In this document: positions 1,451-62,526 of the stretch, piece by piece
Layout: every line of letters starts with the position of its first letter
Position numbering within the stretch: position 1 is the first letter of the stretch
Made by a program: the position numbers and the translations under genes
Notes under the pieces: generated by a model
Databases searched by the model: none
Told to the model about the DNA's origin: nothing
Seen by the model: only the letters and a program-made list of their open reading frames with translations
Source: Micromonospora echinospora
GTDB taxonomy: Bacteria > Actinomycetota > Actinomycetes > Mycobacteriales > Micromonosporaceae
Length of the DNA stretch: 64,000 nucleotides
Assembly: GCF_014203425.1 (NCBI RefSeq)
Contig: NZ_JACHJC010000001.1
Span: 2,232,001-2,296,000 of the forward strand
Direction: 5' to 3'

Positions 1451-2788
1451 GTGGCAGCACAATATCAGGTCAGCGGATCCACGTCGGCCGCGATTTCGGC
1501 GAGCGTCGAATCGGGCATCCGCAGCGGTGACCTCGCCCCGGGCGACGCCCTGCCCGCCGTCCGGGCGCTCGCCGCCGAACTCGGCGTCAGCCCGGCCACC
1601 GTCGCGAAGGCGTACCAGGAACTGCGGCAACGCGGCCTGGTCGCGACCGCCGGCCGGCACGGCACCCGGGTCCGCCCCCGCCCGCCGGTGGCCGCCCGCC
1701 GCGCCGCGCTGCTGCCCCCGCCGCTGGCCGGCGGCCGCGACGTCTCCGCCGGTCAACCCGACCCCCGGCTGCTGCCCCCGCTCGGGCCGCACCTGGCCGC
1801 GCTCGCCACCGAGATCGGACCCCCCGGCGGGTACGCGACCGACGCGACGCTGCCCGACCTGGCCGCCCTGGCCCGGGAGCGGCTCGCCGCGGACGGCGTG
1901 CCGGACGGCGAGCTCACAGTCACCGGCGGCGCGCTCGACGGCATCGAGCGGCTGCTCGCCGCCCATTTGCGCCCCGGCGACGCGGTGGCGGTGGAGGACC
2001 CGGGCTGGGCCAACCTGCTCGACCTGATCGCCGCGCTCGGGCTGCGTGCCGTCGGGGTGCCGGTGGACGACGACGGCCCCACCGTCGGCGGGGTCCGGGC
2101 GGCGCTGGCCGCCGGGGTCCGGGCGCTCGTGGTGACCAGCCGGGCGCAGAATCCGACCGGCGCATCCGTCTCCGCCGACCGGGCGGCGGCGCTGCGGACG
2201 CTGCTGGACGGCCGCGCCGACCTGCTGCTGATCGAGGACGACCACGCCGCCGAACTGGCCCGCGTACCCCTGCATCCGCTCGCCGGGGCGACACCGGCGT
2301 GGGCCTTCGTCCGCTCGGTGAGCAAGCCCTACGGGCCCGACCTGCGGCTCGCCGTGCTGGCCGGCGACGAGGCCACAGTGGCCCGGGTGGCCGGGCGGGC
2401 GCGGGTCGGTGCCGGCTGGGTGTCCACGGTGCTGCAACGCCTGGTCGTGTCGCTCTGGCGCGACCCGGCCACCGCCGACCTGGTGCGGCACGCGGCGGAC
2501 AGCTACGACCTGCGGCGCGACGGGCTGGTGGCCGCGCTCGCCGTGCGCGGGGTGGCCGCGCACGGGCGTACCGGGATCAACGTCTGGGTGCCGGTGCCCG
2601 ACGAGACGGTGGCGGTCACGACGCTGCGCGACGCCGGATGGGCGGTGGCGCCCGGCCGGCTCTACCGCATCGCCGCCGACCCCGCCGTGCGCGTCTCGGT
2701 GAGCGCGCTGGACGAGGCCGACATCCCCGCGCTCGCCGACGCGCTCACCGCCGGAAGGAAGGGCCCCCTCTTAACGCATTCGGTATAG
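1451..2788 (+). CDS. MocR-type GntR regulator with aminotransferase-like domain
   Basis: The 445-residue protein has an N-terminal winged helix (residues about 5-75, including PAVRALAAELGVSPATVAKAY) and a fold-type-I aminotransferase domain (about 100-430). The PLP-binding lysine should be Lys292 in SVSKPYGPD, and an aspartate lies in LLIEDDHAAEL. MocR proteins sense PLP or a PLP adduct and control vitamin B6, GABA, taurine or transport genes. The divergent PNPOx-like gene is its likely target. The last nine residues (KGPLLTHSV) are encoded by an intergenic repeat element, and the usual TAA at the element's start is missing, so the reading frame runs on to a TAG at 2786-2788. The native C-terminus was probably shorter. 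Confidence 0.88.
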   Translation: MAAQYQVSGSTSAAISASVESGIRSGDLAPGDALPAVRALAAELGVSPATVAKAYQELRQRGLVATAGRHGTRVRPRPPVAARRAALLPPPLAGGRDVSAGQPDPRLLPPLGPHLAALATEIGPPGGYATDATLPDLAALARERLAADGVPDGELTVTGGALDGIERLLAAHLRPGDAVAVEDPGWANLLDLIAALGLRAVGVPVDDDGPTVGGVRAALAAGVRALVVTSRAQNPTGASVSADRAAALRTLLDGRADLLLIEDDHAAELARVPLHPLAGATPAWAFVRSVSKPYGPDLRLAVLAGDEATVARVAGRARVGAGWVSTVLQRLVVSLWRDPATADLVRHAADSYDLRRDGLVAALAVRGVAAHGRTGINVWVPVPDETVAVTTLRDAGWAVAPGRLYRIAADPAVRVSVSALDEADIPALADALTAGRKGPLLTHSV

Positions 2789-2806
2789 GAAGGGCCCCTT
2801 GTTAAC
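2759..2806 (+). repeat. 48-bp dispersed intergenic element, copy 1
   Basis: Two 17-bp units (2759-2775 and 2790-2806) of the form AAGGGCCCCTTSTTAAC lie on a 31-bp period, joined by a 14-bp linker containing GGTATAGG. The first unit carries a C-for-T change (CCCCCTC). The same architecture recurs at 20.0, 47.8 and 62.5 kb. Here the element overlaps the 3' end of the MocR coding sequence and ends 63 bp before udgX. Confidence 0.85.
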
Positions 2807-2869
2807 ACCTCCCGCGGAGCGCGGCGGGCCGCTCGCGTGCGCGGCGGCGGACGGGGTAGAACGATCGGC

Positions 2870-3568
2870 ATGGCCGAGACCGAGAGCGCACCCGGAGCGC
2901 AGGAGTTCATCCCGCCGTCGGCGGACACCATCGACGAGCTGCGCGCCGCCGCGACCGGGTGCCAGGGCTGCGAGCTGTACCGGGACGCCACCCAGACCGT
3001 CTTCGGCCGCGGTGACGAGCACGCCCGCGTGGTCTTCGTCGGCGAGCAGCCGGGCGACATCGAGGACCAGAAAGGGCTGCCGTTCGTCGGCCCGGCCGGA
3101 CGGCTGCTGCGCAAGGCCGTCGACGACGCCGCGCTCGACCCCGCCCAGATCTACCTGACCAACGCCGTGAAGCACTTCCGCTTCGAGCTGCGCGGCAAGC
3201 GGCGCATCCACCAGACCCCCGACCGGGTGCACGTCACCGCCTGCCGGCCCTGGCTGGTCGCCGAGTTCGCCCGGCTGCGCCCGGAGATCGTGGTGGTGCT
3301 CGGCGCCACCGCCGCCAAGGCGCTGCTCGGCCCGAGCTTCCGGGTGACGAGACAACGCGGTGAGCTGCTGCCCTGGCCGGCCGCCGCGCAGCACCCGGCG
3401 GACTTCGAGCGGGTGCCGGTCGACCGGTCCGGCGCGGTCACCGACGCCCCGGCGGCCCGGCTGCTGGCCACCATCCACCCGTCCGCGGTGCTGCGCGCCG
3501 ACAACCAGGACGTCGCGTACGAGGGCCTCGTCGCCGACCTGAAGGTGGCCGCCGAGGCGCTGCGCTGA
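2870..3568 (+). CDS. udgX: UdgX-type uracil-DNA binding protein
   Basis: The 232-residue protein belongs to the family-4-like uracil-DNA glycosylases. It shows CxxC at Cys31/Cys34 and Cys125 for an iron-sulfur cluster, the active-site motif GEQPGD (58-63) followed by LPFVGPAGRLL, and a C-terminal HPSAVLR motif. The insertion KRRIH (110-114) is diagnostic of UdgX, in which the histidine (here His114) becomes covalently attached to the abasic sugar after uracil excision, leaving a stable protein-DNA adduct. Only three cysteines are visible in the whole protein. The ATG at 2870 gives the normal family N-terminus; an upstream GTG-rich extension was not used. The gene is convergent with the next one with a single base between stop codons. 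Confidence 0.92.
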   Translation: MAETESAPGAQEFIPPSADTIDELRAAATGCQGCELYRDATQTVFGRGDEHARVVFVGEQPGDIEDQKGLPFVGPAGRLLRKAVDDAALDPAQIYLTNAVKHFRFELRGKRRIHQTPDRVHVTACRPWLVAEFARLRPEIVVVLGATAAKALLGPSFRVTRQRGELLPWPAAAQHPADFERVPVDRSGAVTDAPAARLLATIHPSAVLRADNQDVAYEGLVADLKVAAEALR

Positions 3569-3569
3569 G

Positions 3570-4226
3570 TCAGGAGCGCTGCTGCCAGGTGCACAGGCAG
3601 ACCCGGTTGCCGTCCGGGTCGGCCAGCACCCAGAAGCTCGGCGCCTCCGCGTCGCTGACCAGCGTGCCGCCGGCCGCCAGCGCCGCCGCGATGCGCGCGT
3701 CCACCTCGGCCGGATCCACCCACACGTCCGGGTGCCACCGCTGCCGTGGCTCCTCCCGGCCGGAGCGCTGGAACCAGACGGCCGGCAGCACGCCGTCCGG
3801 ATCGCGTACCTCGTCGGCGTCCGGGCCCGGGCCGGGCGGCGCGCCCCACGCCAGGACCGCGCGCCAGAACGGCAGCACCGCCGCGTGCTCGGGGGTGTCC
3901 AGCGCGAGTTCCAGCCGGGCCAGCCCGGCTGCCGACAGGGTCAGCCCGGAGTCGGCGGCCAGCCCCGAGACGAACCGGGCCAGCCGCAGGTCACGCTGGG
4001 TCACCCCGCCCACGTCGTGCGACCACAGCCGCACGTCCACGTGGGTGTAGCGCAGGTCCAGATCGGGATGATGGTCGACCCGCTCGGCCTCCGCGCCCAC
4101 CGCGGCCACCAGCGCCAGCCCGGCCGCGAAATCGGGGGTACGGATGCGCGTCTGCAACGCCCCCAGCAGGTACGTCCACCCGTCCAGCCCGGCCTCGGCG
4201 ACCTGTTTCCCCGTGAGTGTGCTCAT
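3570..4226 (-). CDS. Pterin-4a-carbinolamine dehydratase fused to VOC domain
   Basis: The first 100 or so residues match 4a-hydroxytetrahydrobiopterin dehydratase (PCD/DCoH), with the active-site region ERVDHHPDLDLRYTHVDV and a second motif TQRDLRLA. PCD recycles the pterin cofactor after aromatic amino-acid hydroxylation. The C-terminal 115 residues form a glyoxalase/VOC fold (for example WHPDVWVDPAEVDARI and WVLADPDGNRVCLCTWQ). The ATG at 4226 follows AGGATGG at a suitable distance. What the VOC half binds is not evident; the fusion occurs in other actinobacteria. No hydroxylase gene is adjacent. Confidence 0.85.
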   Translation of the reverse strand: MSTLTGKQVAEAGLDGWTYLLGALQTRIRTPDFAAGLALVAAVGAEAERVDHHPDLDLRYTHVDVRLWSHDVGGVTQRDLRLARFVSGLAADSGLTLSAAGLARLELALDTPEHAAVLPFWRAVLAWGAPPGPGPDADEVRDPDGVLPAVWFQRSGREEPRQRWHPDVWVDPAEVDARIAAALAAGGTLVSDAEAPSFWVLADPDGNRVCLCTWQQRS

Positions 4227-4309
4227 CCGGCCATCCTGACGTGCGTCACGGCCGTCCGCCACCGTCCACACGGCGATCACGGATCGACACGCGGGGATAC
4301 GATCCGGGC

Positions 4310-4837
4310 ATGGCCGACTCCCGACCTCGTGTGTCACTGCTCCGGTTCGGCGCACCCGGCCCGTACGTGGTCTCCATGCTGATCGCCGGCCTCCTCTGGC
4401 TGCCCATCCGGCTCTGGGAGCGGGACGGCTCCGTTCAGGCCGCGGTGGTCCAAGCCGGCCTGAACGCGGTGATCTGGGGGTTCGCGTTCTTCTTCACACT
4501 GAGCTGGTTCGCGAAGCCGCGCCCCGCCGAGGCGGACCGGGTCGCCGCCTGGGCTGTCGTCGAGACCGCGCTGCGCCGGGGCGAGCCGCCGGCCGACGAG
4601 GCGGGGCGCGCGGCGGTGGCGGACAACCTTCCCGCGGTACGCCGGGGAGCGCTGTTCGGGGTGGCCGGTGGCGTCCTGCTGCTCGGCGCGCTGATCGTGC
4701 TCGCGCTCGACGCCGGGTCGGAGGTCGCCGCCGTCGGGTTCGGCATCGTGCTGGTCGCGGTGCTGGCCGACGCCGTACGCACCGCCCGCCGGGAGCGGCG
4801 GCTGCGAGCGGCGCTCGCCTCTGTCCAGGGCGGGTGA
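4310..4837 (+). CDS. Four-helix membrane protein, unknown function
   Basis: A 175-residue protein with four predicted membrane helices in two pairs (around residues 20-35, 50-65, 115-132 and 135-150), separated by a charged loop, and an Arg-rich C-terminus (RTARRERRLRAAL). I do not recognise a characterised family. The ATG at 4310 is preceded by a weak ribosome site. Its end overlaps a GTG that could start the next gene, but the better start of that gene lies 21 bp downstream of this stop. Confidence 0.7.
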   Translation: MADSRPRVSLLRFGAPGPYVVSMLIAGLLWLPIRLWERDGSVQAAVVQAGLNAVIWGFAFFFTLSWFAKPRPAEADRVAAWAVVETALRRGEPPADEAGRAAVADNLPAVRRGALFGVAGGVLLLGALIVLALDAGSEVAAVGFGIVLVAVLADAVRTARRERRLRAALASVQGG

Positions 4838-4857
4838 GCGGTGCCAGACTGGCCGCC

Positions 4858-6000
4858 ATGGAGCAGCATCTCTACGAGCCCGTCCACGACGAGTTCCGCG
4901 ACCTGTGCCGCCGTTTCCTGACCCGGGAGGCGGTGCCGCACCACGAGCGCTGGGAGGCCGACGGGATCGTCGACCGGCAGGTGTGGCGGGCCGCCGGCGC
5001 GGCCGGGCTGCTCGGCCCCGACGTCGATCCCGAGTACGGCGGCGGCGGGCAGCGCGACTTCCGGTTCAACGCGGTGCTCGACGAGGAGATCGTCGCGGCC
5101 GGGTGCTCGGGCCTCGGGTTCGGGCTGCACAACGACGTGGTGGCGCCGTACCTGACCGAGCTGACCACCGAAGACCAGCGCAAGCGGTGGTTGCCGGGCT
5201 TCTGCTCCGGCGACCTGGTCACCGCGATCGCGATGAGCGAGCCGGGCGCGGGCAGCGACCTGGCCGGCATCCGCACCAGCGCGGTGCGCGACGGCGACAG
5301 CCTGGTCCTCAACGGGCAGAAGACGTTCATCACAAACGGTGAGATGGCCGACCTGGTGGTCGTGGTGGTCAAGACCGCGCCCGAGCAGGGCGCGCACGGG
5401 GTGAGCCTGGTCGTGGTGGAGAGCGGCACGCCGGGCTTCAGCCGGGGCCGCCGGCTGGCCAAGGTCGGGTTGAAGGCCAACGACACCGCCGAGCTGTTCT
5501 TCGACGACTGCCGGGTGCCGGCGGAGAACCTGATCGGCACCGAGAACCACGGCTTCTACCACCTGATGGCCAACCTGCCCCGGGAGCGGCTGAGCATCGC
5601 CGTCGCAGCGGTGGCGGCCTGCGAGAAGCTGCTCGCGCTCACCATCGAGTACGCCCGCTCCCGCGAGGCGTTCGGGCGGCCGATCGGCCGGTTCCAGCAC
5701 AACCGGTTCCTGCTGGCCGAGCTGGACACCGAGGTCACCATCGCGCGGACGTTCGTCAACCACTGCGTCGGCGAGTTCAACGCGGGCCGCCTGTCGGTGA
5801 CCGACGCGGCGAAGGCAAAGTGGTGGACCACCGAGTTGCAGACCAAGGTGGCCGACCGGTGTGTGCAGCTGCACGGCGGCTACGGCTTCATGGCGGAGTA
5901 CCCGGTGGCGAAGGCGTGGCTGGACAGCCGGGTGCAGACCATCTACGGCGGCACCACCGAGATCATGAAGGAGATCATCGGCCGGGGCCTCGGCCTGTAG
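4858..6000 (+). CDS. Acyl-CoA dehydrogenase
   Basis: A 380-residue FAD-dependent acyl-CoA dehydrogenase, the normal family length. Visible hallmarks are AMSEPGAGSDLAGI and NGQKTFITNG (FAD and substrate binding), YARSREAFGRPIGRFQHNRF, the C-terminal QLHGGYGFMAEYPVAKAWLDSR and IYGGTTEIMKEIIGR. The catalytic base in short/medium-chain enzymes is the Glu of the YGGTTEI motif. It would catalyse the alpha,beta-desaturation of an acyl-CoA. The ATG at 4858 is chosen because homologues start with a similar sequence; a GTG at 4834 overlapping the previous stop is the alternative. Chain-length specificity cannot be read from the sequence. Confidence 0.92.
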   Translation: MEQHLYEPVHDEFRDLCRRFLTREAVPHHERWEADGIVDRQVWRAAGAAGLLGPDVDPEYGGGGQRDFRFNAVLDEEIVAAGCSGLGFGLHNDVVAPYLTELTTEDQRKRWLPGFCSGDLVTAIAMSEPGAGSDLAGIRTSAVRDGDSLVLNGQKTFITNGEMADLVVVVVKTAPEQGAHGVSLVVVESGTPGFSRGRRLAKVGLKANDTAELFFDDCRVPAENLIGTENHGFYHLMANLPRERLSIAVAAVAACEKLLALTIEYARSREAFGRPIGRFQHNRFLLAELDTEVTIARTFVNHCVGEFNAGRLSVTDAAKAKWWTTELQTKVADRCVQLHGGYGFMAEYPVAKAWLDSRVQTIYGGTTEIMKEIIGRGLGL

Positions 6001-6067
6001 CGAAACCGGGTGCCGGCTCCAGGGCCGGGTGCGGGAGGATGGGGCACCCGTCCCACCAGGAGCGCGC

Positions 6068-7366: not shown

Positions 7367-7370
7367 ACAC

Positions 7371-18507: not shown

Positions 18508-20007
18508 ATGACTACCGCAGCCGCGGGCAGCCCGCGCACCTACCAGGTGCGTACGTACGGCTGCCAGATGAACGTGCACGACTCCGAGCGCATCTCCGGC
18601 CTCCTCGAGGATGCCGGTTACGTGCGCGCCGCCGAGGCCGACGATCAGCCCGACGTGGTGGTGTTCAACACCTGCGCGGTCCGGGAGAACGCCGACAACC
18701 GGCTCTACGGCAACCTGGGTCATCTGCGCCCCGTGAAGGCGAAGCACCCCGGGATGCAGATCGCCGTCGGCGGCTGCCTGGCCCAGAAGGACCGCGGCGA
18801 CATCGTCCGCAAGGCGCCCTGGGTGGACGTCGTCTTCGGCACGCACAACATCGGCGCGCTGCCCGCGCTGCTGGACCGGGCGCGGCACAACGCCGCGGCC
18901 GAGGTGGAGATCCTGGAGTCGCTGGAGGTGTTCCCCTCCACGCTGCCGACCCGGCGCGAGTCGACGTACGCCGGATGGGTCTCGATCTCCGTCGGCTGCA
19001 ACAACACCTGCACGTTCTGCATCGTGCCCTCCCTGCGCGGCAAGGAGAAGGACCGCCGCCCCGGCGACGTCCTCGCCGAGGTCCGCGCGCTCGCCGACGC
19101 CGGCGTGCTGGAGGTGACGCTGCTCGGGCAGAACGTCAACTCGTACGGCGTCGAGTTCGGCGACCGGTACGCGTTCGGCAAGCTGCTGCGCGCCTGCGGC
19201 GACATCGACGGGCTGGAGCGGGTGCGGTTCACCAGCCCGCACCCGAAGGACTTCACCGACGACGTGATCGCCGCGATGGCGGAGACGCCGAACGTCTGCC
19301 ACTCGCTGCACATGCCGTTGCAGTCCGGCTCGGACGACGTGCTGCGGGCGATGCGCCGCTCGTACCGGTCGGAGCGTTACCTGGGGATCATCTCCAAGGT
19401 CCGGGCGGCGATGCCGGACGCGGCGATCACCACCGACATCATCGTCGGATTCCCCGGCGAGACCGAGGCCGACTTCGCCCGCACGCTCGACGTGGTCCGG
19501 GAGGCGCGGTTCTCGTCGGCGTTCACGTTCCAGTACTCCAAGCGCCCCGGCACCCCGGCCGCCACGATGGACGGCCAGTTGCCCAAGCAGGTCGTGCAGG
19601 AGCGCTACGAGCGGCTGATCGCCTGCGTCGAGGAGATCACCTGGGCGGAGAACAAGAAGCTGGTCGGGGAGACCGTCGAGGTGCTCGTGGCAGTCGGCGA
19701 GGGCCGCAAGGACGAGCGCACCGGCCGGATGTCCGGCCGGGCCCGCGACGGCCGCCTCGTGCACTTCGCCACCGGCGAGCTGGCCGGGCAGATCCGCCCC
19801 GGCGACATCGTGCACACCGTTGTCACGTACGCCGCCCCGCACCACCTCAACGCCGACGGCGCGCCGCTGGCGCACCGGCGTACCCGGGCCGGTGACGCGG
19901 CCGAGGCGGGACAGGTCCCGCGTACCCCCGGGGTGCTGCTCGGACTGCCGACGATCGGCGCGCCGGCCCCGTCACCGGCCCCCACCGGCGGCTGCGCCGC
20001 CCACTGA
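18508..20007 (+). CDS. miaB: tRNA-2-methylthio-N6-dimethylallyladenosine synthase MiaB
   Basis: A 499-residue radical-SAM methylthiotransferase. The N-terminal UPF0004 domain contains [20 protein letters not shown] and GGCLAQ (three cluster cysteines). The radical-SAM CxxxCxxC motif is Cys164, Cys168 and Cys171. A TRAM RNA-binding domain follows, then a 40-residue Pro/Ala/Gly tail. It adds a methylthio group to i6A37, the product of MiaA encoded 4 kb away. The ATG at 18508 sits 10 bp after a TACGCT -10-like box with no ribosome site, so the mRNA may be leaderless. Confidence 0.95.
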
Positions 20008-20019
20008 CCGCCCCCGCGT

Positions 20020-20100
20020 AAGGAAGGGCCCCCTTTTAACACTCGGTGTTAAAAGGGGGCCCTTCCTCTACCGCAGGCGTTAATAAGGGGCCCTTCCTTG
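20020..20100. repeat. Composite copy 2 of the dispersed element (three units)
   Basis: A single plus-orientation unit (about 20020-20040) faces a complete two-unit element in minus orientation (units 20048-20064 and 20079-20095, 31-bp period, linker complementary to GCCTGCGGTAGAGG). This places inverted units tail to tail between the convergent miaB and cellulase genes. Confidence 0.85.
20021..20067. terminator. 22-bp perfect hairpin between miaB and cellulase
   Basis: The two opposed repeat units form a perfect 22-bp inverted repeat (20021-20042 and 20046-20067) around a TCG loop. The stem includes GGGCCCCC and TTTTAAC, so it should be a very stable terminator usable from both sides. Confidence 0.8.
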
Positions 20101-20105
20101 CACGA

Positions 20106-21800
<1,695 letters not shown>

Positions 21801-25102: not shown

Positions 25103-25960
25103 GTGGAGTTCACGAAGGGTCACGGCACCGGCAACGACTTCGTCATCCTGCCCGACCCGGACGGCGCCCTCGACCTGACGCCCGGCCTGGTCGCCGCGCT
25201 CTGCGACAGGCGGCGTGGCCTCGGCGGCGACGGCGTGCTGCGCGTGGTGCGCGCCGCCAAGCATCCCGAGGGCGTCGCGCTGGCCGGCGAGGCCGAGTGG
25301 TTCATGGACTACTGGAACTCCGACGGCTCGTTCGCCGAGATGTGCGGCAATGGGGCCCGCGTGTTCGTGCGCTACCTGCTGGACCGTTCGCTGGCTGCCG
25401 CCTCGTCGGACGGGACGCTGCCGATCGCCACCCGCGCCGGCCTGGTCCGGGCCCGCGTCGAGGGCGCGGACGTGGCGGTCGAGATGCGCCGCCCCCGGCT
25501 GTACGACACGGCGACCGCCACGCTCGGCGGGCTGACGCTGCCCGGCGCCGCCGTGGACGTCGGCAACCCGCATCTGGTGTGCGCGCTGCCCGCCGCGCTG
25601 GAGCTGACCGCGCTCGACCTCACCCGCGCGCCCGACGTCGACGCCTCCACCTTCCCGGCCGGGGTGAACGTCGAGTTCACCACGCCGGGCGAACCGGTCG
25701 CCGGCGTCGACGCGCACGTGCTGATGCGGGTCTACGAGCGCGGCTCGGCCGAGACGCTCTCCTGTGGCACCGGCGCGTGCGCGGTCGGCGCGGTGGCGTT
25801 GCGCGACGCCGGCCTCGACACCGGCACGGTGGCGGTAGACGTGCCCGGCGGACGCCTCACCGTCACGGTGACAGCCGACTCCTGCTGGCTGTCCGGCCCA
25901 GCGGTCCTGGTGGCCACAGGCACCCTGACCCCCTCCGCCCTTGGCGGTTCTGCCGGTTGA
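25103..25960 (+). CDS. dapF: Diaminopimelate epimerase DapF
   Basis: A 285-residue DapF with both catalytic cysteines: Cys81 in EMCGNGARVF and Cys221 in SCGTGACA. FTKGHGTGNDFV at the N-terminus is typical. It converts LL- to meso-diaminopimelate for lysine and peptidoglycan synthesis. The GTG at 25103 gives the correct N-terminus. The TGA stop is embedded in the left arm of a 15-bp perfect inverted repeat (TTGATCAAGG), so the end of the gene coincides with a repeat element. Confidence 0.96.
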   Translation: MEFTKGHGTGNDFVILPDPDGALDLTPGLVAALCDRRRGLGGDGVLRVVRAAKHPEGVALAGEAEWFMDYWNSDGSFAEMCGNGARVFVRYLLDRSLAAASSDGTLPIATRAGLVRARVEGADVAVEMRRPRLYDTATATLGGLTLPGAAVDVGNPHLVCALPAALELTALDLTRAPDVDASTFPAGVNVEFTTPGEPVAGVDAHVLMRVYERGSAETLSCGTGACAVGAVALRDAGLDTGTVAVDVPGGRLTVTVTADSCWLSGPAVLVATGTLTPSALGGSAG

Positions 25961-26016
25961 TCAAGGAGTTTGCGGCGGATTTCCAGTGCTCCGCCGACGC
26001 GAACTCCTTGATCAAC
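25956..26016. repeat. 15-bp perfect inverted repeat at the dapF stop
   Basis: GTTGATCAAGGAGTT (25956-25970) and its exact complement (26002-26016) enclose a second 7-bp stem (25973-25979 with 25990-25996). The left arm includes the dapF stop codon. It is probably a terminator and one of several GATC-bounded hairpins in this 360-bp gap. Confidence 0.75.
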
Positions 26017-45247: not shown

Positions 45248-47803
45248 GTGACCACCGTCGAACAACCCGTGGACGTGCTGCTCAGCGACGGCACGACCGT
45301 CCAGCTGCGACAGATCCGTCCCGAGGACGCGCCCGAGATCGTGGCCATGCACGGCCGCTTCTCCGAGCGCACCCGCTACCTGCGCTACTTCTCGCCGTAC
45401 CCGCGCATCCCGGAACGTGACCTGAAGCGCTTCGTCAACGTCGACCACCGCGACCGCGAGGCGTTCGTGGTGCTCGCCGGCGAGCGGATCGTCGCCGTCG
45501 GCCGGTACGAGCGCCTCGGCCCCGCCTCGCCCGAGGCCGAGGTGGCGTTCGTGGTCGAGGACGCCTACCAGGGCCGGGGCATCGGCTCGGTGCTGCTGGA
45601 GCACCTGGCCGACGCGGCCGGGCGCAACGGCATCGTGCACTTCGTCGCGGAGGTGCTGCCCGCGAACGGCACCATGCTGCGCGTCTTCGCCGACTTCGGC
45701 TACCAGGTCCAGCGCCAGTACGCCGACGGCGTGGTGCACCTGAGCTTCCCGATCGCGCCGACCGAGGCGACCCTGGAGGTGCAGCGCGGCCGGGAGCACC
45801 GCACCGAGGCGCGCTCGATCGCCCGGCTGCTCGCCCCGCGCGGCATCGCCGTCTACGGCGCCAGCACCACCGGGCAGGGCGTCGGCGCGGCGCTGCTCGG
45901 GCACCTGCGCGACGGGGGGTTCACCGGCGCGATCGTGCCGGTGCACCCGAGCGCGTCGACAGTGGCGGGGCTGCCCGCGTACCCGTCGGCGGCCGACGCC
46001 GGTCAGGACGTCGACCTGGCGGTGGTGGCGGTCCCGCCGGACGCGGTGACCGACGTGGTGCGCGACGCCGCACGCGCGGGCGCGCACGGGCTGGTGGTGA
46101 TCTCGGCCGGGTTCGCCGAGTCCGGGCCGGCCGGCGCGGCAGCGCAGCGCGCGCTGGTCCGCGCCGCGCACCTGGCCGGCATGCGGGTGGTCGGACCGAA
46201 CTGCCTCGGCGTCGCCAACACCGACTCGGCGGTACGCCTCAACGCCACGCTCGCCCCGGTGCTGCCCGCGGCGGGCCGGGTCGGCGTGTTCAGCCAGTCC
46301 GGCGCGTTCGGGGTGGCGCTGCTCGCCGAGGCGTCCCGCCGTGGGCTCGGGCTGTCCAGCTTCGTGTCGGCCGGCAACCGGGCCGACGTGTCCGGCAACG
46401 ACCTGCTCCAGTACTGGCAGGACGATCCGTCCACCGACGTCATCACGCTCTACCTGGAGACGTTCGGCAACCCGCGCAAGTTCGCCCGGCTGGCCCGGCG
46501 CATCGGCCGCAGCAAGCCGGTGGTGGCGCTCGCCTCGCTGGCCCGGCCGCCGGGCGTGGGGGAGGCGCCCGCGCTGGACGCGGCTGCGGTGAGCGCGCTG
46601 TTCGCCCAGTCCGGCGTGATCCGGGTGGACACCGTGTCCGAGCTGCTCGACGTCGGTGTGCTGCTGGCGCACCAGCCGTTGCCGGCCGGGCGGCGGGTCG
46701 CGGTGGTGGGCAACTCCTCGGCGCTGACCGGGCTGGCCGCGACCGCCTGCGCGGCCCAGGGGCTGGCGGTGGCCGACGGGTACCCGCAGGACGTCGGGCC
46801 GAGCGCCGGGGCCGCCGCGTACGCCGCCGCGCTCGGTGACGCCGTGGCCGACGAGCGGGTGGACGCCGTGGTGGCGGTGTTCGCGCCGCCGTTGCCGGGG
46901 CAGCTCGCCGACCCGGTGGCCGACTTCGCGGCGGCGCTGCCCGACGCGCGGGTCACCGGCAAGCCGGTGGTGGCGACGTTCCTCGCCGGACTGGTGCCGG
47001 CCGGGGTGCCGGCGTACCCGAGCGTCGAGGAGGCGGTGCGCGCGCTGGGCCGGGTCACCGCGTACGCCGACTGGCTGCGGCGGCCGCCCGGTGTGCTGCC
47101 GGAACTGCCAGACGTGGACCGGACGGCGGGGCACGCCGCGCTGCGTCCCGACGGTGCCGACGCGGCGGCGCTGCTGCGCGCGTACGGGATCGACGTGGTG
47201 GAGTCGGTCCCCGCCGGCACAGCCGGGGAGGTGCTGGCGGCGGCCGAGCGGCTCGGCTGGCCGGTGGCGCTCAAGGCCGCCGCGCCCGGCCTGCGGCACC
47301 GCCTCGACCTGGGCGCGGTACGCCTCGACCTGGCCGACGCCGCCGCGCTGCGCCGCGCGTACGCCGAGATGGTGCCGGTGTTCGGCGCGGAGGTGCTGGT
47401 CCAGCCGATGGTCGCGCCCGGCGTGGCGTGCGTGGTGGAGCTGGTGGAGGATCCGGCGTTCGGGCCGGTGGTCGGGTTCGGGCTCGGCGGTGTGGCCACC
47501 GAGCTGCTCGGCGACCGGGCCTGGCGGGCGGTGCCGCTGACCGACCGGGACGCCGCCGAGCTGGTCGACGAGCCCCGGGCCGCGCCGCTGCTGCACGGGC
47601 ACCGGGGCGCCGCGCCGGTGGACCGGGCGGCCCTGGTCGACCTGCTGGTGCGGGTCGGGCGGCTCGCCGACGAGCAGCCGCGGGTGCGGTCGCTCACGCT
47701 CAACCCGGTGCTGGCCCGGCCGGACGGCATCTCGGTGCTGCACGCCACTGTGCGCACCGGCGCGGAGGTCGCCCGCCCGGACACCGGCCCCCGCCGCTTG
47801 TAA
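45248..47803 (+). CDS. Protein lysine acetyltransferase: GNAT fused to NDP-forming acyl-CoA synthetase
   Basis: An 851-residue multidomain protein. The N-terminal GNAT domain (about 15-170) has the acetyl-CoA loop YQGRGIGSVLLEHL. The middle is a CoA-binding/ligase-like region (about 190-650; GIAVYGASTTGQG, VGPNCLGVANT, GVFSQSGAFGVALL) and the C-terminus is ATP-grasp-like (about 670-851). The order, GNAT first, is that of Streptomyces lividans PatA, which acetylates and inactivates acyl-CoA synthetases. GTG at 45248. The TAA stop is the first three bases of a dispersed repeat. Confidence 0.92.
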   Translation: MTTVEQPVDVLLSDGTTVQLRQIRPEDAPEIVAMHGRFSERTRYLRYFSPYPRIPERDLKRFVNVDHRDREAFVVLAGERIVAVGRYERLGPASPEAEVAFVVEDAYQGRGIGSVLLEHLADAAGRNGIVHFVAEVLPANGTMLRVFADFGYQVQRQYADGVVHLSFPIAPTEATLEVQRGREHRTEARSIARLLAPRGIAVYGASTTGQGVGAALLGHLRDGGFTGAIVPVHPSASTVAGLPAYPSAADAGQDVDLAVVAVPPDAVTDVVRDAARAGAHGLVVISAGFAESGPAGAAAQRALVRAAHLAGMRVVGPNCLGVANTDSAVRLNATLAPVLPAAGRVGVFSQSGAFGVALLAEASRRGLGLSSFVSAGNRADVSGNDLLQYWQDDPSTDVITLYLETFGNPRKFARLARRIGRSKPVVALASLARPPGVGEAPALDAAAVSALFAQSGVIRVDTVSELLDVGVLLAHQPLPAGRRVAVVGNSSALTGLAATACAAQGLAVADGYPQDVGPSAGAAAYAAALGDAVADERVDAVVAVFAPPLPGQLADPVADFAAALPDARVTGKPVVATFLAGLVPAGVPAYPSVEEAVRALGRVTAYADWLRRPPGVLPELPDVDRTAGHAALRPDGADAAALLRAYGIDVVESVPAGTAGEVLAAAERLGWPVALKAAAPGLRHRLDLGAVRLDLADAAALRRAYAEMVPVFGAEVLVQPMVAPGVACVVELVEDPAFGPVVGFGLGGVATELLGDRAWRAVPLTDRDAAELVDEPRAAPLLHGHRGAAPVDRAALVDLLVRVGRLADEQPRVRSLTLNPVLARPDGISVLHATVRTGAEVARPDTGPRRL

Positions 47804-47853
47804 GGAAGGGCCCCTTCTTAACGCCTCAGGTAGAGAAAGGGCCCCTTCTTAAC
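47801..47853 (+). repeat. 48-bp dispersed intergenic element, copy 3
   Basis: Units AAGGGCCCCTTCTTAAC occur at 47806-47822 and 47837-47853 (identical, 31-bp period) with linker GCCTCAGGTAGAGA. The upstream extension TAAGGA begins with the stop codon of the acetyltransferase gene. Confidence 0.88.
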
Positions 47854-47908: not shown

Positions 47909-48316
47909 TCAGCCGCGTTCGGAGATCTGCTGCACCGCCCACTCGTTGCCGTCCGGGTCGCGGAGGAAGACGAAGCCGACGTTGTCCAGCGGATGCGGCA
48001 CCGGACGCGGGTTCTTGCCGAGCACCTGGATCTCGCTCACGTCAACGCCCCGCTCGACCAGCTCGGCGTGCGCCCGTTCCAGGTCGGCCACGACGAGTTG
48101 CAGGCCCTTGAGTGACCCCGGCGGCATCTCCGGTACGACGCCACGGCCGAGCACTATCGAGCAGCCGGAGCCCGGGGGTGTGAGTTGGACGATCCGCCCC
48201 GCGCCGCCCAGATCCGTGTCGTGGTCGACGGCGAAGCCGAGCCGTTCGGCGTAGAACTCCTTGGCCCGGTCCACGTCGGAGACCGGTACGACTACCACTT
48301 CCAGCGTCCAGTTCAC
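47909..48316 (-). CDS. VOC-family (glyoxalase-like) protein
   Basis: A 135-residue VOC protein: MNWTLEVVVVPVSDVDRAKEFYAERLGFAVDHDTDLG, then FVFLRDPDGNEWAVQQIS with the usual C-terminal metal-ligand region. Substrate unknown. The GTG overlaps the upstream stop (GTGA), making it the third gene of an ArsR-SRPBCC-VOC operon. Confidence 0.9.
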   Translation of the reverse strand: MNWTLEVVVVPVSDVDRAKEFYAERLGFAVDHDTDLGGAGRIVQLTPPGSGCSIVLGRGVVPEMPPGSLKGLQLVVADLERAHAELVERGVDVSEIQVLGKNPRPVPHPLDNVGFVFLRDPDGNEWAVQQISERG

Positions 48317-56878: not shown

Positions 56879-57179
56879 CGTGACCGCCTCCTCGTCGGCG
56901 TGAGTTCCGCACCGCCTCGTCGTAGCGCTTGGCCTCGACGTCGCTCAGTTCGCGGGCGGAGAGGATGTCCCAGTCGTTGTCGGTGCCCTCGGCCTCGGCC
57001 AGCAGCACGGCGAGCCGCCGGCCCCGGTGGTCGGTCGCGTAGACCACCATCACGTCGTCACCGAGGTGCCGGATGACCCGGTGCCTGCTGTGCAGGGCCT
57101 CCCAGACTTCCCCGGGTGTGACGTCGTAGACCCGCAGGTTCGCCAGCGCCTCGTCGGTGAAGCTGAACCGGTTGGCCAC
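56868..57179 (-). CDS. BrnT-like ribonuclease toxin
   Basis: A 103-residue protein: FSFTDEALANLRVYDVTPGEVWEAL, then VVYATDHRGRRLAVLLAEAE and DILSARELSDVEAKRYDEAV. The last segment matches the conserved ISAR...E..YE C-terminus of BrnT toxins, which are RelE-fold RNases. The start is taken at the GTG at 57179, 6 bp downstream of a TACGCT -10-like box (leaderless); a GTG at 57221 would add 14 residues. Toxicity is inferred from the family and pairing. Confidence 0.7.
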   Translation of the reverse strand: MANRFSFTDEALANLRVYDVTPGEVWEALHSRHRVIRHLGDDVMVVYATDHRGRRLAVLLAEAEGTDNDWDILSARELSDVEAKRYDEAVRNSRRRGGGHDAP

Positions 57180-57285
57180 CGCCGAAGCGTACCACGCACG
57201 TAACACACGACCGGTCGTCACGAATTTCGCCGATCATCCGTCCGGAGTGACAGGATGAGGCGTATCCCCTCGTAGGAGGTCCGTG

Positions 57286-57642
57286 GTGAAGCGTCAGGCG
57301 TACCAGCCGATCCTGATCACCGACGCCCCGCGCAGCCAGGACGACCAGCTCAACAGCCGGCAGAAGCGTTACGTGCTGATGATGGCCATCCGGGTCGCGT
57401 GCCTGGTGGCGGGCGCGATCCTGGTCGGCGCGAAGGCACCGCTGCTCTGGTTCTGGCTGCCGTTGTGCGCGCTCGGCATGGTGCTCGTGCCCTGGCTCGC
57501 CGTGCTGCTCGCCAACGACCGGCCGCCCAAGGAGGAGCACCGGCTGGCGAACCGGTTCCAGAACCGCCGCCGCGAGGAGCCCGCGCCCACTGCGCTGACC
57601 ACGCAGGAGAACCCGCGCAAGATCATCGACGCCGAGCCCTGA
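57286..57642 (+). CDS. DUF3099 membrane protein
   Basis: A 118-residue protein with two membrane helices (about 30-48 and 55-75) and a hydrophilic tail. The N-terminal YQPILITDAPRSQDDQLNSRQKRY is the DUF3099 signature. Of the two adjacent GTG codons the second (57286) is at a six-base spacing from AGGAGG. Function unknown; typical of actinobacteria. Confidence 0.88.
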   Translation: MKRQAYQPILITDAPRSQDDQLNSRQKRYVLMMAIRVACLVAGAILVGAKAPLLWFWLPLCALGMVLVPWLAVLLANDRPPKEEHRLANRFQNRRREEPAPTALTTQENPRKIIDAEP

Positions 57643-57672
57643 CCGGTCCGGACGGGCCACCGCCCGGACCGG
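57643..57672. terminator. Hairpin between DUF3099 and the PfkB kinase
   Basis: CCGGTCCGG (57643-57651) pairs with 57664-57672 around a 12-nt loop in the 37-bp convergent gap. It is a moderate candidate for a bidirectional terminator. Confidence 0.55.
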
Positions 57673-57679
57673 CCGCCCG

Positions 57680-58633
57680 TCAGGGGGTGGGGCGGGCGCC
57701 TACCGTCGTCACTGCCAGCGCGCCCAGGTCGCCGGCGCGGGCCAGCGCGGCGCGCGGATCGGCGCCGGCCAGCCAGGCGGTGAGCAGCCCGGCCGCGAAC
57801 GCGTCCCCGGCCCCGGTCACGTCCACCACGTCCACCCCCGGCGCCGGAGCGAACTCCACCACGCCGCCGCGCTGCACCCAGACCGCGCCGGCCGCGCCCT
57901 GCTTGACCACCACCCGGTGCGCCACCGCCGTCAGCGCCCGGGCCTGCGCCGCCGGGTCCAGCCCGCCGGCCAGCACCGTCGCCTCGTCCGTGTTGACGAG
58001 CAGCAGGTCGACGTCGCGTACCCAGGTCAGGAACGCCCCGCCGACGCGCCGCAGCGGCGCCGCGGACGCCGCGTCGACGCTGACGGTCAGCCCGCGCGCG
58101 CGGGCCGTGGCCAGCGCGCGCAGGCCGGCGCCGCGCGACCCGACGTCCAACAGGGTGTACGCGGACAGGTGCAGATGCCCGGCGTCGGGCGCCGCGGCCA
58201 GCGCCGCGTCCACGTGCGCGGCGGTCAGCCGCAGGTTCGCGCCCCGCTGGCTGACCATGGTCCGCTCCCCGTCGTGGGTGAGCACGATGACGGTGCCGGT
58301 CGGGTAGCCCTCGTGCCGCTCCACCGCGCAGTCCACACCGATGCGGGTCAGCTCGTCCACCCGCTCCCGGCCGGTCTCGTCGTCGCCGACGGCGGCGACC
58401 AGCGTCACCGCCGCGCCCTGCCCGGCGAGCCAGGCCGCGGTGTTCGCCGCCTGCCCGCCGCCGCTGAACCGGATCCCGGCCGCGGTGTCCGAGCCGGTGG
58501 CGAGCGGCCCGGACAGGACCGCGAGCACGTCGGTGATGACGTCGCCGACGACGACGACGCGCGGCGCTGCGCTCATGCCGTGCCAGCCGGGCATGCCCTC
58601 ACGGCCCTCGCTGCGCTCGGTGCGTTCGCTCAT
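57680..58633 (-). CDS. psuK: PfkB-family sugar kinase, probable pseudouridine kinase
   Basis: A 317-residue ribokinase-fold kinase: N-terminal [15 protein letters not shown], substrate motif [19 protein letters not shown], and the catalytic [19 protein letters not shown] with the base Asp in GAGDAF. Because it is coupled to psuG it probably phosphorylates pseudouridine. ATG 58633 overlaps the psuG stop (ATGA), but a second copy of the same junction 57 bp inside (ATG 58576) marks the conserved N-terminus and may be the real start. Confidence 0.85.
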
Positions 58634-59565
58634 GCCGTGCCGGCGGTACGACGGGCCGCCGCGGCGACCGCGATCCGGGCCGCGAGGTCGGCGTTGCGCA
58701 GGATGATCCGGACGTTCACGGTCAGGCTGGCGCCCTCGGTGGCGGCGTGGAAGTGCGACAGCAGGAACGGGGTGACCGCCTTGCCGGTGATCCCTTCCCG
58801 GGCCAGCGCGGCCAGCCCTTCGGTGAGCGTGCGGTCGTGCAGCGCCGGGTCGAGCTGCTCGTCGGCGGGCAGCGGGTTGGCCACCACCAGACCGCCGTGG
58901 TGCACACCGTGCGCCGCGCGGGCGGCCAGCACGTCCGCCACCTGCTCCGGCGACTCGACCGACCAGTCCAGGTCGAAGCCGGCGTCGGTGAGGTAGAAGC
59001 CGGGGAATCGGCGGGTGCGGTAGCCCACCACGCCCACCCCGAGCGTCTCCAGCCGTTCCAGCGTGGCGCCCACGTCGAGGATCGACTTCACCCCGGCGCA
59101 GACCACCGCGATCGGGGTCCGGGCCAGCGTGACCAGGTCGGCCGACTCGTCGAACGTCTGTGTCGCCTCGCGGTGCACGCCGCCGAGCCCGCCGGTGGCG
59201 AACACGCCGATCCCGGCCGCCGCCGCGACCGCGCTGGTGGCCGCGACGGTGGTGGCGCCGTCCGCGCCGGTGGCCGCCGCCGGGGCCAGGTCGCGGACCG
59301 AGAGCTTGCTCACGCCGTCGACGGTGGCGAGGCGGGTGAGCTGGGCGTCGTCCAGCCCGACCCGCAGCTCGCCGGCGAGCATGCCGATGGTGGCCGGCAC
59401 CGCCCCCGCGTCCCGTACCGCCTGCTCGATCTCGCGCGCCACGCGCAGGTTGTCCGGCCGGGGCAGCCCGTGCGAGACGATCGTGCTCTCCAACGCCACG
59501 ACCGGGCGGCCGTCGCGCAGGGCGTCGGCCACCTCACTACCGAGACTGATGTGAAAGTTGGTCAC
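58630..59565 (-). CDS. psuG: Pseudouridine-5'-phosphate glycosidase
   Basis: A 311-residue Psu[62 protein letters not shown] and [15 protein letters not shown] with the catalytic Lys. It cleaves the C-C bond of pseudouridine 5'-phosphate to uracil and ribose 5-phosphate. With the downstream kinase it forms a complete pseudouridine salvage route. GTG at 59565. Confidence 0.95.
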
Positions 59566-59653
59566 GTCGGCTACCGTACGGGCCGCTCCCGCCCGGGGCC
59601 CAGGTGGACCAGGACGGACCGACCTGCAAAACTGGAACGCCGGAGGTGGAGTC

Positions 59654-59872
59654 GTGAGCACAGAGATTCTCGAGCGTCCCGAGCTGAAGGACGCAGACAC
59701 TGGTCCGGAGATGTTCCACTACGTCCGCAAGGAGAAGATCGCCGAGAGTGCCGTCATGGGCACCTTCGTGGTCGCGCTCTGCGGCGAGACGTTCCCGGTC
59801 ACCAAGGCGGCCAAGCCGGGCTCCCCGGTCTGCCCCAAGTGCAAGGAGATCTACGACTCGTACCGCGAGTGA
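59654..59872 (+). CDS. DUF3039 protein
   Basis: A 72-residue protein: [46 protein letters not shown] and [13 protein letters not shown]. The Cys of CGETF and the CPKC pair probably bind zinc. The family is conserved in actinobacteria with no assigned function. GTG start, preceded by GGAGG. Confidence 0.92.
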
Positions 59873-59912
59873 TGCCGGACGGCGTCGCGGCCCGCGCACG
59901 TAACCTGCGGCG

Positions 59913-60563
59913 GTGACCACCTCCACCGCCCTGCTCCTCGCCGACCTCACCGGCGTGGCGGTCTTCGCCGCCTCCGGCGCCTCCGCGGCGGTGGCGAAAC
60001 GGCTCGACCTGTTCGGCGTCGTCTTCGTCGGCGTGGTCGCCGCGCTCGGCGGCGGCATCTTCCGCGACCTGGCGATCGACGAGGTTCCCCCGCTGGCGTT
60101 CGCCGACTGGCGGTACGCCGCCACCGCCTCCCTCACCGCCGCCGCCGTGTTCTGGCTGCACCCGCAGCTCACCCGGCTGCGCACCACAGTGCTGGTACTG
60201 GACGCCGCCGGCCTCGGCCTGTTCACGGTCATCGGCACGCTCAAGGCCCTCGACGCCGCCGTGCCGCCGGTCGGCGCCTGCATGATCGGCATGCTCACCG
60301 CGATCGGTGGCGGGCTGGGCCGTGACCTGCTCACCGGCGAGATCCCGGTGGTGCTGCGCCGGGAGATCTACGCCCTCGCCGCGCTCGCCGGAGCGGTAAC
60401 GGTGGCGCTGCTGTCGGCGTACGGACAGGCGACCGCCGTGCCGCTCACCGCCGCCGTCCTGCTCGTGTTCGGGCTGCGCCTGATCGCGCTGCGCCGGCGC
60501 TGGTCCGCGCCGGTGGCGACGCTGCGGCCGCCGCGCACCGGCACCGGGGGACCACTGTCCTGA
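59913..60563 (+). CDS. TRIC-type cation channel (UPF0126)
   Basis: A 216-residue membrane protein with seven helices arranged as two repeats, each with a Gly-rich kink (AALGGGIFRDL and AIGGGLGRDLLTGEIP). This is the bacterial TRIC family, a potassium-permeable homotrimeric channel; the older name is UPF0126/YicG. The GTG at 59913 is the likely start. It is 40 bp after DUF3039. Confidence 0.93.
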   Translation: MTTSTALLLADLTGVAVFAASGASAAVAKRLDLFGVVFVGVVAALGGGIFRDLAIDEVPPLAFADWRYAATASLTAAAVFWLHPQLTRLRTTVLVLDAAGLGLFTVIGTLKALDAAVPPVGACMIGMLTAIGGGLGRDLLTGEIPVVLRREIYALAALAGAVTVALLSAYGQATAVPLTAAVLLVFGLRLIALRRRWSAPVATLRPPRTGTGGPLS

Positions 60564-60742
60564 CCCGCCGTGCGCCGGGGTGCGCGGATGTGACAGGCGT
60601 GGCGTCGAGTGGGGCGTACGGCCCGCGCTGGTTATGCTGAGTCCGCCTTCGCGGCACAGGATGCGCGAGGGCGTTTTCATGGGCGGCGGCTCCCGTGGCC
60701 CCGGTCGGGCCCGCCGCCGTCCGCGGCGGAGAGGAGCTACGC

Positions 60743-62476
60743 GTGCCACCGCGGATGCCGACGCTCGACACGTTCCCGCCCCTGCGTGCCTGGCAACGCA
60801 AGGCGCTCGTGGAGTACCTGCGCCGCCGGACCGAGGACTTCACAGCGGTCGCCACGCCCGGCGCCGGTAAGACCACGTTCGCGCTGCGGATCGCCGCCGA
60901 GCTGCTCGCCGACGGCACCGTCGAGGCAGTCACCGTGGTCGCGCCGACCGAGCACCTGAAGACCCAGTGGGCGCAGGCCGCCGCCCGGGTCGGCATCCAG
61001 CTCGACGCCGCGTTCCGCAACGCCGACCTGCACTCCGCCGCCGACTTCCACGGCGCGGTCGTCACGTACGCCCAGGTGGGCATGGCGCCGCAGGTGCACC
61101 GCCGGCGCACCATGACCCGCCGCACGCTGGTCATCCTCGACGAGATCCACCACGCCGGCGACTCGCGGACCTGGGGCGACGGCGTCAAGGCGGCGTTCGA
61201 GCCCGCGGTACGCCGCCTGATGCTCACCGGTACGCCGTTCCGCTCCGACGACAACCCGATCCCGTTCGTCAGCTACGAGCGCGGCGGGGACGGGCTGCTG
61301 CGTTCCCGCGCCGACTCGGTCTACGGGTACTCCGACGCGTTGCGCGAGGGCGTGGTCCGGCCGGTGCTGTTCCTGGCGTACTCGGGGGAGACCCGGTGGC
61401 GCACCAACGCGGGTGAGGAGCTGGCGGCCCGGCTCGGCGAGCCGATGACGCAGGACCTGGTCGCACAGGCGTGGCGTACCGCGCTGGACCCGGCCGGCGA
61501 CTGGATGCCGCAGGTGCTGCGCGCCGCCGACGCCCGGCTCAGCGTGCTGCGCGCCAACGGCATGCCGGACGCGGGCGGCCTGGTCATCGCCAGCGATCAA
61601 CAGGTGGCCCGCGCGTACGCGAAGCTGCTGGAGCAGGTGACCGGCGAGAAGGCCGCCGTGGTGCTTTCCGACGACCAGGGCGCGTCCGCGCGGATCGCGA
61701 CGTTCGCCGCCTCTCAGCAACGGTGGCTGGTAGCGGTGCGGATGGTGTCCGAGGGCGTCGACATCCCCCGGCTGGCAGTCGGCGTGTACGCGACCAGCGC
61801 CAGCACCCCGCTGTACTTCGCGCAGGCGATCGGCCGGTTCGTCCGGGCCCGCCGCTCCGGTGAGACCGCGTCGGTGTTCCTGCCCAGCGTGCCGCACCTG
61901 CTCGGGCTGGCGAGCGAGATGGAGGCCGAGCGGGACCACGTGCTCGGCAAGCCGAAGGACCGCGAGGGCTTCGACGACGACCTGTTGGAGCGCGCCCAGC
62001 GCGACGACGGCGCCAGCGGCGAGCTGGAGAAGCGCTTCGCCGCGCTCTCCGCCACCGCCGAGCTGGACCAGGTCATCTTCGACGGCGCGTCGTTCGGCAC
62101 CGCCGCCCAGGCCGGTACGCCCGAGGAGGAGGAATACCTCGGCCTGCCCGGTCTGCTCACCGCCGACCAGGTCTCGCTGCTGCTGACCAAGCGGCAGGCC
62201 GAGCAGCTCGCCGCGCAGAAGCGCCGGGCCGCCCAGCGGACCGCTGAGCCGGCCGCTGCGGCCCCGGCGGTGGCGCCCCCACCGATGAGTGCCGCCCAGC
62301 GCCGCGTGGCGCTACGGCGGCAGCTGAACGCTCTGGTGGCCGCCCGGCACCACCACACCGGCCAGCCGCACGGCAAGATCCACGCCGAGCTGCGCCGGAT
62401 CTGCGGCGGCCCGCCCAGCGCGCAGGCGACGATCGAGCAGCTCGAGGAGCGCATCGCCACCGTCCAGACCCTGTAA
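60743..62476 (+). CDS. Superfamily 2 DEAD/DEAH helicase
   Basis: A 577-residue SF2 helicase: Q-like LRAWQRKALVEYL, motif I ATPGAGKTTFA, motif II DEIHHAGDSRTWG, motif III LTGTPFRSDDNP, and motif VI QAIGRFVRARRSG. The C-terminal 150 residues are charged and Ala-rich. This is a common actinobacterial group resembling XPB/RadD-like helicases; its role is unknown. The GTG at 60743 follows GAGGAG at six bases. Its TAA stop begins a dispersed repeat. Confidence 0.9.
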   Translation: MPPRMPTLDTFPPLRAWQRKALVEYLRRRTEDFTAVATPGAGKTTFALRIAAELLADGTVEAVTVVAPTEHLKTQWAQAAARVGIQLDAAFRNADLHSAADFHGAVVTYAQVGMAPQVHRRRTMTRRTLVILDEIHHAGDSRTWGDGVKAAFEPAVRRLMLTGTPFRSDDNPIPFVSYERGGDGLLRSRADSVYGYSDALREGVVRPVLFLAYSGETRWRTNAGEELAARLGEPMTQDLVAQAWRTALDPAGDWMPQVLRAADARLSVLRANGMPDAGGLVIASDQQVARAYAKLLEQVTGEKAAVVLSDDQGASARIATFAASQQRWLVAVRMVSEGVDIPRLAVGVYATSASTPLYFAQAIGRFVRARRSGETASVFLPSVPHLLGLASEMEAERDHVLGKPKDREGFDDDLLERAQRDDGASGELEKRFAALSATAELDQVIFDGASFGTAAQAGTPEEEEYLGLPGLLTADQVSLLLTKRQAEQLAAQKRRAAQRTAEPAAAAPAVAPPPMSAAQRRVALRRQLNALVAARHHHTGQPHGKIHAELRRICGGPPSAQATIEQLEERIATVQTL

Positions 62477-62526
62477 GGAAGGGCCCCTTCTTAACGCCTG
62501 CGGTAGTGCAGGGGCCCCTTGTTAAC
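62474..62526 (+). repeat. 48-bp dispersed intergenic element, copy 4
   Basis: Units at 62479-62495 and 62510-62526 (31-bp period) are joined by GCCTGCGGTAGTGC. The extension TAAGGA starts on the helicase stop codon (62474-62476), exactly as in copy 3. Confidence 0.88.

Follow-up and report, generated by a model that had tools for sequence, protein, structure and literature searches.

The 64,000-nucleotide stretch of Micromonospora echinospora DNA analyzed here (the window; G000:C1:2232001-2296000, contig NZ_JACHJC010000001.1) belongs to a genome, G000, that forms one contig of 7.13 Mb and whose nearest named relatives, judged from its ResIII/DEAD-helicase gene, are M. chalcea and M. tulbaghiae. 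The window carries four copies of a short intergenic element that a preliminary description had recognized from the letters of the window, and all four are found at the positions given there (Table 1). Each of the four copies has the strict layout claimed for it, with two 17-bp units, a 14-bp linker containing GGTA, and a resulting period of 31 bp; including the AAGG that precedes unit 1, the element spans AAGG plus 48 bp. Each copy of the element comprises two imperfect palindromes of 20–23 bp, about three helical turns apart, and some copies have a third palindrome in inverted orientation. The overlap of two window copies with the TAA stop of the preceding gene (stops at 47801-47803 and 62474-62476) is likewise borne out. 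Allowing three mismatches, the 17-bp unit has 14 matches in the window compared with 0.14 expected from shuffles, some of the 14 being one palindrome counted on both strands. No Rfam family is found in the window at the gathering threshold.

Table 1. Elements of the window and the hairpin that follows the helicase gene
Feature	Position	Strand	Position in preliminary description	Gene context and structure	Occurrence in relatives
Element 1, two-unit	2755..2806	+	2759-2806	last codons and TAG stop of a MocR-like regulator open reading frame (ORF; 1451-2788) lie within the element	absent in M. tulbaghiae
Element 2, three-unit	20018..20101	-	20048-20095 (reversed)	two-unit part 20048-20099 (-) with the inverted third unit on its other side; between convergent miaB-like (18508-20007 +) and cellulase (20106-21728 -) genes	occupied in M. 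chalcea and G123; empty in M. tulbaghiae, with an ordinary GC hairpin there
Element 3, two-unit	47802..47853	+	47806-47853	TAA of the preceding gene (45248-47803, CoA-ligase/GNAT domains) overlaps the element; following gene convergent (47909-48316 -)	occupied in G123; empty in M. chalcea and M. tulbaghiae
Element 4, two-unit	62475..62526	+	62479-62526	overlaps TAA stop of the helicase gene (60695-62476; ResIII/DEAD-box by Pfam)	
Separate hairpin (ACCGGCCGGAGGC...GCCTCCGGCCGGT)	62562..62600	+		downstream of element 4	visible by eye in many relatives, both carrying and lacking the element

Copy number and consensus of the element

With up to three mismatches, the two-unit pattern occurs 88 times in G000, 45 times on the plus strand and 43 times on the minus strand, compared with zero matches to the reversed control pattern. 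The genome-wide enrichment that the preliminary description expected is therefore present, and its estimate of hundreds of copies per genome is too high by this strict pattern. Exact 15-bp units number 113, many of them within the 88 two-unit copies. From the fetched G000 sequence, 87 of the 88 places were recovered with their flanks, and these underlie the counts out of 87 given below. AAGG lies immediately 5' of unit 1 in all 87 copies, although it is outside the search pattern, and is commonly preceded by GTGN (G, T, and G in 59, 59, and 81 of the 87, respectively); GTAG precedes unit 2 in most copies. An inverted third unit is present in 11 of the 87, and these third units match the unit 2 of their own copy much better than units of other copies, with two mismatches in total as opposed to 10.5 when shuffled (P = 0.0002).

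The copies are unevenly spread over the chromosome: the interval from 2.4 to 5.4 Mb, picked after inspecting the distribution, makes up 42% of the length and holds 10 of the 88 (P = 4e-10). There is no strand bias by genome half (plus strand 23/46 and 22/42). A check for a phage carrier gave 0 exact matches to one two-unit pattern in viral contigs.

Joint presence and absence of gene X and the repeats in Micromonospora

A close pair of elements at 6114754 (+) and 6115883 (-) of G000 brackets a single-copy gene, here called X, that is located between glyS (glycine-tRNA ligase) and dusB (DusB). Across 30 named genomes and G000, this locus contains both the two-unit element and X in nine rows and neither in the other 22, the cassette being absent as a unit in 22 of the 31. 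M. chalcea and M. tulbaghiae have a common X-less allele with a similar hairpin (folded for M. tulbaghiae). In a set of 31 X loci (30 returned by the search for X over the genus, plus that of G568), inward-facing two-unit elements stand on both flanks of X without exception. The upstream element lies 105–152 bp from the start of X, mostly 115–118 bp, and the downstream element overlaps the X stop codon in 12 of the 31 loci. In Micromonospora sp. HNM0581, which has no X at the locus (L278 1863-1915), a single hairpin, GTAAGGAAGGGCACCCTCC...GGAGGGTGCCCTTCCTTAC, is found at the glyS end where others carry the element, and it is possibly a remnant or a member of a related hairpin family.

X is predicted to be a fusion of two folds, that of an AbiEi antitoxin and that of a Vsr/homing endonuclease. 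X and its homologues match the Pfam families AbiEi_4 and MTES_1575, and proteins of this type are annotated "type IV toxin-antitoxin system AbiEi family antitoxin domain-containing protein". In the nuclease half, E202, D236, and H254 are invariant and, by the predicted model, are residues of catalytic type; X is under purifying selection. Searching PDB sequences with a profile made from the X alignment gave no credible match.

The relation between X and the elements was assessed in a draw of 121 Micromonospora genomes, with X called at E < 1e-90. Five or more elements are present by pattern in 36 of the 37 genomes with X and in five of the 84 without it (Fisher P = 3e-24). A further 10 X-less genomes have one to three pattern matches, and 70 of the 121 have no pattern copy, a count from a pattern that misses variants such as that of G568. 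This genome is the one with X and zero elements by pattern; its X is flanked by a TTACC variant of the element, and this variant of its own has 20 copies in 406 kb as opposed to 0 for the reversed control. Conversely, G571 has 50 elements and no full X, and an internally deleted X lies between elements. X-positive genomes have one ortholog-level X match each, which is in two pieces in G538 and G550. Over 32 named rows, the distribution of X needs eight changes, at least six of them on well-supported branches, and X clusters no more than do shuffled labels; the association of X with the elements is thus repeated rather than inherited once. Taken over the genus, the presence of X and that of the repeats go hand in hand, and a dependence of the elements on X is strongly supported by these comparisons.

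In the wider family, the strict pattern is present in at least 32 of 200 genomes and at least five of 44 genera. Among the matches listed, several genomes of one genus read GGGCACC in both units, by which direct pairing of the units in RNA is disfavored as a general mechanism. In a survey of 296 genomes of the class, one-unit matches outside the family are scattered, with one to three per genome.

Bracketing by inverted copies also brings to mind a classic miniature inverted-repeat transposable element (MITE) moved by an unlinked DDE transposase, with X a mere passenger between two copies. Its short size, its intergenic spread, and the inverted bracketing of ordinary genes (VTT-domain, YchJ-like, and zinc-dehydrogenase) as well as of X would suit such an element. 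We nevertheless consider this improbable: X sits at one locus, is bracketed in 31 of 31 cases and predicts the presence of elements, and target duplications are not seen in the alignments compared, where small ones could be missed. As to cargo, none of the ORFs belonging to the six close inward-facing pairs is recognized as a transposase, judged by eye and by Pfam for three enclosed genes, all three of which are ordinary.

Placement at gene ends and turnover of sites

Gene context in G000 was taken from a simple codon-usage gene caller. Outside the called ORFs lie 82 of the 87 copies, in 40 convergent, 38 tandem, and only four divergent contexts, and at least one gene 3' end is beside 78 of the 82; the copies are thus not scattered randomly inside genes, an outcome that the preliminary description had named as adverse to its proposal. 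A gene runs toward unit 1 in 61 of the 82 copies, with its stop 2 bp from the element in 20 (the TAA lying inside the element edge), 4 bp in 13, and 7–13 bp in 26, while two genes run into the element. In tandem contexts, orientation is even (21/38), so that placement at gene ends is favored, yet the orientation is unlike that of a terminator. One copy lies at a start codon: at anmK (Pfam AnmK; L011, G000 2308018), the native start is replaced by the element and the frame seems to begin at an element-edge TTG, where M. tulbaghiae anmK has ATG.

It is very improbable that the family is an intrinsic bidirectional terminator typical of the genus and unrelated to X. Placement at gene ends would fit this explanation, as would the strong hairpin formed by the three-unit copy at 20018-20101 (z about -6 on either strand) and the match of units 2 and 3 within copies. 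The third unit is, however, confined to 11 copies, and the three two-unit window copies give z values of -0.50 to -3.84 relative to shuffles, U tracts not being part of the score; for two of the window's four copies, folding is no stronger than in shuffles. Genomes with GGGCACC in both units, among the matches listed, would have poorer pairing, 70 of the 121 genus genomes have no pattern copy (variants like that of G568 being missed), and X is left unexplained. The genus-specific terminator offered in the preliminary description is also not supported as the main explanation by the five copies that lie inside genes, by the copy at a start codon, and by the separate hairpin downstream of element 4, which is present with or without the element and is itself a candidate for the real terminator of the helicase gene. 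In the comparison of helicase 3' flanks (41 of 80 loci plus the window, with hairpins judged by eye), the element is at the gene end in three of the 42 rows.

Two other repeats were observed in the window. An inverted-repeat family (GTTGATCAAGGAGTTTGCGGCG ... inverted) at 25956-26016 begins at the stop-codon region of the gene called as ending at 25960, and several other Micromonospora species have GTTGATCAAGAAGTTT hairpins like this repeat where their helicase gene ends. The stretch 58558-58645, at the 5' end of the minus-strand gene 57680-58633, is a dispersed and partly tandem repeat with many 60–90-bp matches in three relatives, and overlapping matches about 50–57 bp apart in G586 and G123.

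The occupancy of sites differs between close relatives. M. tulbaghiae is 95–96% identical to G000 over the 19.5-kb stretch tested, and the two-unit element is absent from it at 13 of 13 alignable sites, with a single-unit remnant at one. Genome-wide, it has two pattern copies compared with 84 in M. chalcea; one of the two corresponds to a G000 site on both flanks and the other on the right flank only. A weight matrix built from the 87 copies finds none in 174 kb of M. tulbaghiae, nine in 120 kb of G123, seven in 168 kb of M. chalcea, nine in 140 kb of NBS 11-29, five in 140 kb of solifontis, and 12 in 140 kb of haikouensis. In a table of 22 sites in seven genomes, M. tulbaghiae is empty at all 14 alignable sites, one of which aligns loosely (850-bp gap). 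At seven of these 14, the element is present in the G000/chalcea/G123 group and also in one or more of NBS 11-29, solifontis, and haikouensis, with one of the seven resting on a weak match. A single-gene tree places M. tulbaghiae among the occupied species, and from this nested position and the empty sites, M. tulbaghiae is most simply read as having lost its copies. One copy inside a called ORF of G000 (L024) matches an M. tulbaghiae ortholog (L185) that holds one of its two remaining copies, as if loss there were not tolerated.

Gain is seen as well: two haikouensis copies (one adjacent pair) stand opposite short empty sites of near-equal length in M. tulbaghiae, G123, and NBS 11-29. No target-site duplication is seen in the empty/occupied alignments compared, in which flanks are often rearranged and small duplications could be missed. 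When 30 loci from seven genomes were compared with loci around G000 elements or units, both flanks matched in 5/5 cases for M. chalcea, 1/2 for M. tulbaghiae, 3/5 for NBS 11-29, 3/5 for solifontis, 2/4 for CP22, 1/4 for PLK6-60, and 0/5 for haikouensis; one flank matched in one more case each for M. tulbaghiae, CP22, and haikouensis.

Proposed explanation and relation to known repeat systems

The element family is real, biased toward gene ends, variable between lineages, and statistically bound to X, which its copies bracket. We propose, with a probability of about 0.68, that the element is a nonautonomous repeat resembling repetitive extragenic palindromes (REPs) and depends on X, which would bind and mobilize the repeats. 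The best reading is a system like that of REPs and REP-associated tyrosine transposases (RAYTs) run by an unrelated AbiEi-nuclease fusion. Of the REP/MITE-like element mobilized in trans that the preliminary description put forward, the REP-like dependence in trans is upheld by the co-occurrence with X, and the RAYT as partner is not: the Y1/RAYT family PF01797 is absent from G000, in a search that is positive in five of 14 control genomes, and a RAYT is thereby ruled out.

In the proposed mechanism, X would bind the palindromic units through its AbiEi winged-helix half, by analogy with known antitoxins, and would also bind the copy that lies about 116 bp ahead of the start of X, leading to autoregulation. 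We infer recognition of the units because the AbiEi operon has a promoter with two 23-bp inverted repeats to which AbiEi binds (PMC7319586) and because an element stands at a near-fixed distance upstream of X. By weaker inference, the Vsr/EDxHD-like nuclease half would nick or cut nearby, and repair or gene conversion would then place copies of the repeats at new sites, for the most part directly behind stop codons, and keep the family homogeneous. Copies would later be inherited vertically, and lineages losing X could lose the repeats.

Several points weigh against this proposal. Five X-less genomes contain 15–84 elements, namely G537 (which is M. chalcea, as judged from identical places), G175, G571, G560, and G528; since they keep their elements, X is not needed for short-term persistence, and three of the five (G175, G528, and G560) have no explanation under the proposal. 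X may be broken or frameshifted in G538, G550, PLK6-60, and gifhornensis, as judged from two-piece matches, and the elements stay. Many sites are old, M. chalcea sharing G000 sites at all five loci, and movement is therefore slow. The MTES_1575 match of G000 X has an E value of 0.019, below the Pfam cut-off, and binding of the units in the manner of AbiEi stands by analogy only. The support consists of sequence data, and no target-site duplication is seen in the alignments compared.

The rival with the most left in it is a roadblock, in which X would have been domesticated as a DNA-binding protein that has its chromosomal sites in the elements. When bound at the ends of genes, X would act as a roadblock terminator or insulator, its nuclease half being inactive or otherwise used, and spread would be rare. 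The placement of 78 of the 82 non-ORF copies beside a gene 3' end with only four in divergent contexts, the retention of sites between species, and the purifying selection on X would all be accommodated, and with the 31-bp spacing the two units share a helical face. In addition, a strong GC hairpin (-27 to -59 kcal/mol) replaces the element at four M. tulbaghiae empty sites, chosen by eye from 13, and at the X-less locus of that species. We regard the roadblock as rather unlikely, however, given the lack of orientation preference in tandem contexts, the five copies within called genes together with the one that provides the anmK start codon, the separate hairpin after the helicase gene, the invariance of E202, D236, and H254, and the existence of lineage-specific insertions. 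The near-complete loss in M. tulbaghiae while X-less M. chalcea keeps its copies is accounted for neither by mobilization through X nor by the roadblock.

In its overall design, the proposed X-driven system is reminiscent of REPtrons, in which REPs or REPINs are associated with a RAYT: there are about 100 short palindromic extragenic repeats per genome, in genome-specific variants, and a single-copy gene flanked by two inverted repeats (in 31 of 31 X loci). According to PMC2817692, RAYT genes always have two REPs in inverted orientation at their flanks; a later paper, PMC3733652, also reports RAYT genes with other inverted repeats on either side, and PMC8049555 describes the genes as single-copy and vertically inherited. 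Unlike in REPtrons, X is not a Y1/HUH transposase but an AbiEi plus Vsr-like protein, the element is two-unit with a 31-bp period, and the GT(A/G)G head of REPs is not consistent on unit 1, GTAG preceding unit 2 in most copies. The element and X work like a REPtron, but, because the defining Y1 transposase was sought and not found, the system is no member of that class and is a variant with a different enzyme. Another REP family without a RAYT is formed by CGTC-tagged REPs, which, according to the authors of PMC3733652, apparently have no dedicated transposase; the element differs from these in sequence, and the main text of that paper names none of Micromonospora, Salinispora, Streptomyces, Frankia, and Actinobacteria.

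With the AbiEi antitoxins of AbiE type IV toxin-antitoxin systems (Rv2827c among them), X shares the predicted AbiEi antitoxin fold. No AbiEii nucleotidyltransferase toxin gene is found beside it in G000, however, its neighbors being glyS and dusB, and, unlike AbiEi antitoxins, X has a nuclease domain and about 90 genomic sites instead of one operator. Its nuclease fold with conserved catalytic-type residues is, in the predicted model, like that of Vsr/EDxHD homing endonucleases (I-Bth0305I), from which X differs in lying outside any intron or intein, in its fusion to an AbiEi domain, and in its tie to dispersed repeats. In the open-access literature, with most subscription papers outside the search, no description of this element or of a repeat-linked AbiEi-nuclease was found.

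We give even odds to a bolder form of the proposal, in which the repeat population would be kept by a new class of enzyme, an AbiEi-Vsr fusion that evolved independently of RAYTs, binds the repeats as an antitoxin binds its operator, and cuts like a homing endonuclease. The population would then live or die with one gene, M. tulbaghiae representing a recently extinct population and M. chalcea one in which the gene has been lost and the repeats have not yet been.

In the passages of the REP literature consulted, RAYTs are the only dedicated enzymes named for REP families, and in PMC3733652 one REP class is said to lack one. A demonstration that X mobilizes the repeats would make X an enzyme of a new kind for REP-like repeats, and the common AbiEi-family annotation would become tied to repeats that are genome-wide. 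If X drives the repeats, the combination of a REP population with a single-copy gene would have evolved on two or more occasions, each with an unrelated enzyme, and would thereby be a general strategy. Because X-positive, X-lost, and element-free close relatives coexist in Micromonospora, the origin, maintenance, and extinction of a repeat population are directly testable in this genus.

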